This document shows positions 5,974 to 8,292 of a stretch of DNA of 60,222 nt, piece after piece. How positions within the stretch are numbered: the stretch's first letter is position 1; each line of letters begins with the position of its first letter. The stretch covers positions 1 to 60,222 of the forward strand of contig JAAYQE010000076.1 of the NCBI GenBank assembly GCA_012519455.1, written 5' to 3'. A program made the position numbers and the translations under genes. This stretch comes from Syntrophomonadaceae bacterium (GTDB taxonomy: Bacteria; Bacillota; Ch66; Ch109). The notes beneath the pieces are model-generated. The model was not told where the DNA came from. It was given only the letters and a program-made list of their open reading frames with translations, and did not search any database.

Positions 5974-6077
5974 AAAATTAAAATTATTACTTTCTTTTTG
6001 GTCTAAAAATAATATAGTAGGATTGTTTTTTCATCTAATCTTACCGCGCATGCGGTTCTTGGTTTGAGGTGGTGCGA

Positions 6078-7850
6078 TTGAATCCTACCGCGATAGGTGT
6101 GCGTCGGAGAATTTATTATCTCTTTATCTTTTTGGCCGTCATTCTATTTTTATTAATTTTACGTCTTGGTTGGGTACACCTCGTACAGGGTGAAGAACTT
6201 TATCAGATGGCCCTAGATAACCGTATGCGGGATGTACCGGTAGAAGCGAAGCGAGGAACCCTTTATGATCGCCATCATAAAGAACTAGCTTTAAGTATTA
6301 GCTCCGATGCCCTTTATGCTATTCCTCCTGAAGTACGACAGTCCGGAAAAGAGCAGCAGATTGCGCAGGAATTAGCCCGGATTTTAGGCATGGAGGAGGC
6401 TGTCGTTCTAGAAAAAATTACCCGTAATTCTCGGCATGAGTGGATTAAATTAAAAGTACCTCCGGAGCAAGTCGAAGAAATTAAACGGCTTCGATTTAAA
6501 GGGATTGATTTTGCAGAAAAGAGTCAACGGTTTTATCCCAAAGATAATTTAGCCGCACATGTCCTGGGGATTTCCGGGATAGATAATACTGGTTTGGAAG
6601 GGATTGACAAGAGTTATGATTCGGAGTTAAGTGGAACCCCTGGCCGGATTGTAATTGAATATGATGCCGGAGGCCGGGAAATACCTCAGGCGATGCATAT
6701 GTACATCCCTCCGAAGGACGGACACAGCCTGGTTCTAACGATTGATGAAACTATCCAATATATTGTAGAGCGGGAATTGGAAAAACTGTATCAAGCCCGT
6801 CAGCCGAAAGCCGCGACGATTATCGTCATGGATCCTAGTACCGGGGAAATTTTGGCCCTGGCCTGCCGTCCAGATTTCAATCCTAATGATTATAACCATT
6901 ATCCAGCCGTGAATCGCCGGAATGTAGCAATTAGTAATGCCTATGAACCGGGATCGGTTTTTAAGATAATAACCGCAGCTGCCGGTCTAGAGGAAGGTGT
7001 AGTTAGACCAGATACGCCATTCTACTGTTCCGGAGGCTTACCGGTCGGTAAGCATACGATTCATTGCGCTAATTATCGGGCCCACGGGAGTCAGCGTTTT
7101 GCGGATGTAGTAGCTAACTCTTGTAATGTTGGCTTTTCCAGTTTGGGCTTAAATATGGGCGTAAATTCCTTTTATAAATACGTACGGGCTTTTGGTTTTG
7201 GCCAGAAAAGTAATATCCCCCTTCCTGGGGAGGCACTCGGAATTTTAGTTCCCCAGAGTCAGGCTCGAGACATTCATTTAGCAACCATGGCCATGGGGCA
7301 AGCGAATGCGGTTACCCCGATTCAGATGTTGACCGCTGTCTGTGCGGTAGCCAATGGGGGGAACTTAATGCAACCTCAATTGGTTAGAACGGTTTTGAAT
7401 GTGCATGGGGAGGTAATCCAGGAGTCTTCTCCGCAGGTGGTCCGAAGAGTTATTGCCCAAAAAACTTCTGAGGAGTTACGGCTTTTACTAGAAGAAGTAG
7501 TGGCTAATGGTACGGGGAAAAATGCCCAGGTAGAGGGTTATCGGGTAGCTGGTAAAACCGGAACCGCGCAGAAACCGGCTCCGGGTGGAGGATATTTGAC
7601 CGATGAATTTGTTGCTTCCTTTGTAGGCTTTGCACCAGCAGAACAACCGCAGATTGCCGTTCTGGTATTGATCGATGCGCCACAAGGCTATCCTTATTAC
7701 GGGGGCTTGGTAGCGGCCCCGGTTTTTAGTGCGGTAGTGAAAGACACCTTGCGTTATCTAGGAGTCCCGTATGAGTTGCCCGTTCAGAACTCTTCGGTGG
7801 AGGTGCCGGCCGGAGAAAAATCTATAGAGAAGAAGATTACAGTTCCCTAG
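6078..7850 (+). CDS. spoVD: SpoVD-type class B penicillin-binding protein, cut short by an in-frame TAG
   Basis: Peptidoglycan transpeptidase. One N-terminal membrane anchor (residues about 12-35) is followed by the PBP dimerisation region and a transpeptidase domain with Ser293 in SVFK, an SCN motif near residue 350, and KTG at 493-495. The ribosome site GAGGTGG (6066-6072) favours TTG 6078 over the GTG at 6069. The frame stops at TAG 7848-7850, directly after ITVP, where SpoVD and other PASTA-bearing PBPs continue VPDxxGM. The same frame resumes at once with two PASTA domains (7854-8216). The transpeptidase domain is complete, so the short product should be active. SpoVD makes the spore cortex with SpoVE. 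Here it occupies the only class B PBP slot of the cluster, so an FtsI-like role is also possible. Confidence 0.9.
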   Translation: MNPTAIGVRRRIYYLFIFLAVILFLLILRLGWVHLVQGEELYQMALDNRMRDVPVEAKRGTLYDRHHKELALSISSDALYAIPPEVRQSGKEQQIAQELARILGMEEAVVLEKITRNSRHEWIKLKVPPEQVEEIKRLRFKGIDFAEKSQRFYPKDNLAAHVLGISGIDNTGLEGIDKSYDSELSGTPGRIVIEYDAGGREIPQAMHMYIPPKDGHSLVLTIDETIQYIVERELEKLYQARQPKAATIIVMDPSTGEILALACRPDFNPNDYNHYPAVNRRNVAISNAYEPGSVFKIITAAAGLEEGVVRPDTPFYCSGGLPVGKHTIHCANYRAHGSQRFADVVANSCNVGFSSLGLNMGVNSFYKYVRAFGFGQKSNIPLPGEALGILVPQSQARDIHLATMAMGQANAVTPIQMLTAVCAVANGGNLMQPQLVRTVLNVHGEVIQESSPQVVRRVIAQKTSEELRLLLEEVVANGTGKNAQVEGYRVAGKTGTAQKPAPGGGYLTDEFVASFVGFAPAEQPQIAVLVLIDAPQGYPYYGGLVAAPVFSAVVKDTLRYLGVPYELPVQNSSVEVPAGEKSIEKKITVP

Positions 7851-7853
7851 GTA

Positions 7854-8216
7854 GTGGAAATGGCCGTGCCGGAGGCGGAAAAGATTATTACTAAGGCCGG
7901 TTTAACGCCGGTTGTAGTAGGCGAGGGAGAAAAAGTATGGGGGCAAACCCCGCAGGGGTCAGCCTTAGTTAATCCGAAAACGCGAGTATTGCTTTATTCT
8001 GGGCCCCAGGAGGCACGGAATGAAGACAAACAAGAGGTTACTGTACCGGATTTAACCGGTAAAACAATGCGGGAAGCCGGTCAAATTCTAGGGGGATTGG
8101 GATTGCGTTTAACGGCAGTGGGTAGTGGAATAGCTATTAATCAGAGCATAACGCCGGGTACGGTAGTAAAGTCCGGAACTATCCTTACTGTTGAATTTGA
8201 CACAAAGGCTCCATAA
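7854..8216 (+). CDS. Detached PASTA-domain tail of SpoVD (same frame, beyond the TAG)
   Basis: About 120 residues holding two PASTA domains, starting VVEMAVPEAEKIITKAGL and, around residue 62, TVPDLTGKTMREAGQILGG. The frame is the same as spoVD, separated by a single TAG. Reading through TAG rebuilds one ordinary protein of about 712 residues, so this was clearly part of spoVD. Possible states are a nonsense mutation, an assembly error, stop readthrough, or separate translation from GTG 7854 or ATG 7860, for which there is only a weak ribosome site. No signal or anchor is present, so as a separate cytoplasmic protein it would have no evident PASTA role. Confidence 0.7.
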   Translation: MEMAVPEAEKIITKAGLTPVVVGEGEKVWGQTPQGSALVNPKTRVLLYSGPQEARNEDKQEVTVPDLTGKTMREAGQILGGLGLRLTAVGSGIAINQSITPGTVVKSGTILTVEFDTKAP

Positions 8217-8264: not shown

Positions 8265-8292
8265 TTGACATAAGGGCCAGTAATTTTATACT
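8265..8292 (+). promoter_or_regulatory. Sigma-A promoter in front of murE
   Basis: TTGACA (8265-8270), a 16-bp spacer and TATACT (8287-8292), a near-consensus vegetative promoter in the 208-bp gap between the spoVD tail and murE. It would give a leader of about 125 nt. A second TATAAT lies at about 8374 with a poor -35. murE and later genes can therefore be transcribed independently of mraZ. Confidence 0.75.

Follow-up and report, generated by a model that had tools for sequence, protein, structure and literature searches.

The spoVD locus and its in-frame stop

The DNA considered here, referred to as the window, is a stretch of 60,222 nucleotides from contig JAAYQE010000076.1 of a Syntrophomonadaceae bacterium (assembly GCA_012519455.1). 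The spoVD locus within it is a dcw cluster with the gene order rsmH, ftsL, spoVD, murE, murF; a SpoVE/FtsW gene, ftsZ and the genes for SpoIIGA, SigE and SigG are located 3' of the dcw genes. The models for SpoIIGA, SigE, SigG and SpoVE are satisfied in the window and spo0A scores above its cut-off elsewhere in the genome; since these genes are present, the host is predicted, on gene content only, to be a spore-former. The source assembly is a draft metagenome-assembled genome of 277 contigs, 97.6% complete and with 4.27% contamination. It encodes other transpeptidases, and no close second copy of spoVD was found in it at E <1e-100. One relative, G003, has a second spoVD-type gene with PASTA (G003:C1:206717-208780), 51% identical and on a contig separate from that of the dcw copy.

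Read as one frame, positions 6069-8216 comprise 715 codons, the 594th being TAG, and a closing TAA at 8214-8216 (Table 1). As the earlier note had claimed, the spoVD frame ends in TAG after the residues ITVP, giving a 593-residue product with the C-terminus K-I-T-V-P, and the same frame continues through two good PASTA domains, both of which match above the Pfam cut-off. The claim that the transpeptidase is complete without this tail also holds. The 593-residue form matches positions 2-177 of 180 in the dimerisation domain PF03717 and positions 2-298 of 299 in the transpeptidase domain PF00905, and its score of 688.2 bits against TIGR02214 (spoVD_pbp) passes the curated cut-off of 688 by a hair. 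The C-terminal PASTA domains, in frame but 3' of the TAG, are absent from the terminated protein. The placing of the TAG at the PASTA boundary needs some correction: the codon is near the start of the first PASTA domain, but the match begins at Ile590, four residues 5' of the TAG, which occupies approximately the fifth position inside the domain and does not fall between domains. The spoVD start is probably TTG 6078, and the annotation of GTG 6069 wrong; TTG is preferred because GAGGTGG lies directly upstream of it and relatives align from approximately residue 4-8. A promoter-like site (11/12 matches) is present at 8265-8292, between the PASTA tail and murE, although the number of such sites around the spoVD region is not above chance.

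Table 1. Features of the spoVD frame and of its continuation beyond the TAG codon.
Feature	Position	Strand	Remarks
spoVD-type class B penicillin-binding protein	6069..7850	+	593 aa to TAG; PF03717 and PF00905 complete
PBP dimer domain (residues 58-206), transpeptidase (residues 250-557)	within 6069..7850	+	
In-frame TAG, codon 594	7848..7850	+	near N-terminal edge of first PASTA; relatives have a sense codon
First PASTA domain	7836..7997	+	PF03793, 33 bits; TAG inside (n=1)
Second PASTA domain	8037..8201	+	PF03793, 48.1 bits; 3' of TAG
Open frame past TAG	7854..8216	+	GTG 7854 or ATG 7860; 118-120 aa

The TAG codon in relatives and in the genome

Three relatives, which belong to the same family or order and are 63-76% identical, have an open frame, and their codons opposite the TAG are GAA (Glu), AAG (Lys) and AAT (Asn); GAT is likewise found among relatives at this position. 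Across 48 homologues Asp is the commonest residue in this column (27 of the 48), with Ser, Asn, Glu, Pro, Lys and Gln also seen. The family pattern VPDxxGM proposed in the earlier note thus captures the prevailing Asp, but it is loose, as the three nearest relatives illustrate. A survey of the phylum covered 399 genomes, with matches listed down to about 46% identity, and among these roughly 150 matches none has a stop at the position of the TAG. Apparent stops in three genomes were rejected as shared with the window: in G317 a TGA precedes the start codon, and those in G027 and G033 are natural gene ends. A search at class level, the class holding only four genomes, added nothing further, and the same genus is not represented among the relatives searched. 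Within the reach of these comparisons, the TAG appears to be unique to the window's assembly. A sense codon in all the relatives, with the window's assembly as the sole exception, is one part of what the earlier note had named as telling against its own proposal. The number of PASTA domains seems to vary in the SpoVD family: the matches from G006, G010, G015, G025, G042 and G056 stop near query residue 645, which suggests that these homologues carry a single PASTA domain, not two.

The frame beyond the TAG is well preserved. It shares 68-70% identity with the nearest relative over 116-121 residues, and judged by this alignment its openness is more than chance. The dN/dS of the tail against the nearest relative is approximately 0.14, a rough value with dS near saturation. 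Counted at sites where two outgroups agree, unique changes in the tail (63 sites) number 4 in the window and 6 in the nearest relative, while in the body of the protein (366 sites) they number 24 and 14, respectively. The tail has therefore evolved no faster in the window lineage than in its closest relative. Had translation ended here long ago, the tail should have drifted, and the TAG is therefore taken not to be old; since the tail is undecayed, the codon is either recent, erroneous or read through. The frame itself is probably untranslated, or translated at background level only.

Elsewhere in the genome TAG behaves as a normal terminator. Eight conserved genes of the window end in TAG where their families are expected to end, among them ftsZ, sigE, sigG and ileS (the last named from its own sequence). 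Release factor RF1 (prfA) is encoded, in two halves at the ends of separate contigs (G000:C195:6-662 and G000:C184:3-530) which overlap by approximately 40 codons; the split looks like an assembly break and not a loss of the gene. No tRNA with the anticodon CTA was detected, either by a pattern search or by running ARAGORN on the 31 Rfam tRNA matches. The N-terminal domain of PylS has no match in the genome, an absence which is not absolute at 97.6% completeness, and PylSc yields class II synthetase matches below the cut-off only. Pyrrolysine recoding was accordingly rejected for lack of PylS. Together these genomic features indicate that TAG is an ordinary stop here, with neither reassignment nor a known suppressor.

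Mutation, error or readthrough

We favour, with moderate confidence, a recent and nearly neutral nonsense mutation yielding a working SpoVD that lacks PASTA domains. One recent substitution in the sequenced population, most likely GAG or AAG to TAG, either of which needs a single step, would have cut SpoVD after its transpeptidase domain. The product would be a membrane-anchored protein of 593 residues without PASTA, probably still functional, so that the change would be nearly neutral; the downstream PASTA sequence would then be a fresh relic, too young to have decayed. Both the authenticity of the base and the function of the truncated enzyme are inferred. Experimental work on other SpoVD proteins is consistent with the latter: in C. 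difficile, SpoVD without PASTA restores normal sporulation (PMC8417463), and the same paper reports that the PASTA domains of SpoVD are likewise dispensable for sporulation in B. subtilis. The suggestion that separating PASTA from the catalytic domain could alter cortex or septum targeting is thus unlikely to bear on sporulation. Localisation may nevertheless be affected to a small degree, since pneumococcal PBP2x needs its PASTA domains to localise at mid-cell, according to the title of the paper cited for it. The position of the TAG calls for no special explanation. Of the 275 single-step routes to a stop, 58 (about a fifth) fall in the tolerated tail, and codons 591-597 hold about 2 of those 58; its closeness to the domain edge is a mild coincidence, noticed post hoc.

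The main rival, a possible though less probable one, is a one-base consensus or assembly error in the metagenome-assembled genome, the real gene being intact. Such an error would give a picture identical to that of a recent mutation, and the TAG is known from one assembly only, a fragmented draft with some contamination. It would also explain why the codon is unique among the relatives listed while the tail looks fully maintained in the window lineage. Against this, a comparison with relatives' open reading frames over approximately 73 kb of conserved coding sequence from this genome, of which 41 kb lies in the window and 32 kb on other contigs, revealed no other nonsense codon or frameshift in a sense frame; the many 'stops' in antisense shadow frames were discarded. 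The assembly is therefore not error-rich, although a sample of this size is too small to tell against a single error. A real mutation is favoured over error because truncation without PASTA should be tolerated, and the choice between the two rests on priors. Of the four possibilities listed in the earlier note, it is these two, nonsense mutation and sequencing error, which fit.

Readthrough of the TAG, whether leaky or programmed, giving a short major SpoVD and a full-length minor form with PASTA, appears improbable. In its favour, the frame beyond the stop is intact and under constraint, and a study of bacterial genes describes conserved in-frame stops with low dN/dS, interpreting them as candidates for readthrough (PMC7918605). 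Readthrough would also leave the tail fully conserved, as a recent mutation does, but for the same reason constraint by itself fits a recent stop equally well. Programmed readthrough is recognised by a stop conserved across species together with a constrained frame, and in this case the constraint is present while the stop is shared with none of the relatives among the matches listed. The genome offers RF1 and normal use of TAG, and neither a suppressor tRNA nor pyrrolysine genes came to light in the searches described above. Nor is there a stimulatory RNA structure in the 100 bases 3' of the stop, which fold like shuffled sequences (z -0.16), and Rfam yields nothing but a chance match (E 0.31). 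The earlier proposal of two SpoVD forms therefore lacks positive evidence. That such readthrough should be regulated, with the PASTA-less SpoVD and the minor full-length form differing in their targeting to septum and cortex, is very unlikely.

Separate translation of the PASTA tail, by reinitiation at ATG 7860 or GTG 7854, is more doubtful still. Both codons lie no more than 10 bases past the TAG and an AGG is found approximately 8 bases 5' of ATG 7860, but the Shine-Dalgarno interaction at this ATG amounts to -3.9 kcal/mol, compared with -6 to -12 for murE, murF and mraY, so that the start is weak. The product would be a PASTA fragment without a membrane anchor, confined to the cytosol and away from the peptidoglycan, and no relative has a split gene. 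That TAG should encode an amino acid throughout the genome, as the one in-frame TAG inside a conserved gene might suggest, is scarcely conceivable; such a reassignment was rejected on the conserved TAG gene ends, RF1 and the missing CTA tRNA.

Comparison with known systems

Rather than a novel regulatory device, the TAG in spoVD seems to be a commonplace mutation of recent date or an assembly error at a single base. As it stands the finding matters little, since draft and natural genomes alike can be expected to contain isolated nonsense codons in C-terminal domains that are dispensable. It does counsel caution against automatically labelling a TAG-interrupted spoVD-like gene as a pseudogene.

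The gene agrees with SpoVD proteins of the TIGR02214 family in locus order and domains and still clears the family cut-off in its truncated form. It differs in being ended by TAG just as the first PASTA domain begins, whereas the listed homologues of similar length stay open through the tail. With the in-frame stops of conserved bacterial genes (PMC7918605) it shares a nonsense codon followed by sequence under purifying selection. That study, however, focused on stops common to at least two species, whilst the stop in the window is known from a single assembly; its argument for readthrough needs stops shared between species and does not carry over to this TAG.

Other parallels are found among proteins which lack PASTA domains. 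C. difficile PBP3 is a natural PASTA-less paralogue of SpoVD (PMC12713402); like the truncated product it combines a transpeptidase with a pedestal domain and has no PASTA tail, and it takes part in sporulation. PBP3 is, however, encoded by a separate gene with an end of its own, whereas the window has an interrupted frame. The engineered PASTA-less SpoVD (PMC8417463) has the same domain content as the truncated product, and by analogy a similar function would be expected, the difference being that in the window two PASTA domains have been lost, through a point mutation that is natural or only apparent. If real, the truncated gene would represent a natural counterpart of this laboratory protein, in agreement with the view that the tail is not needed.
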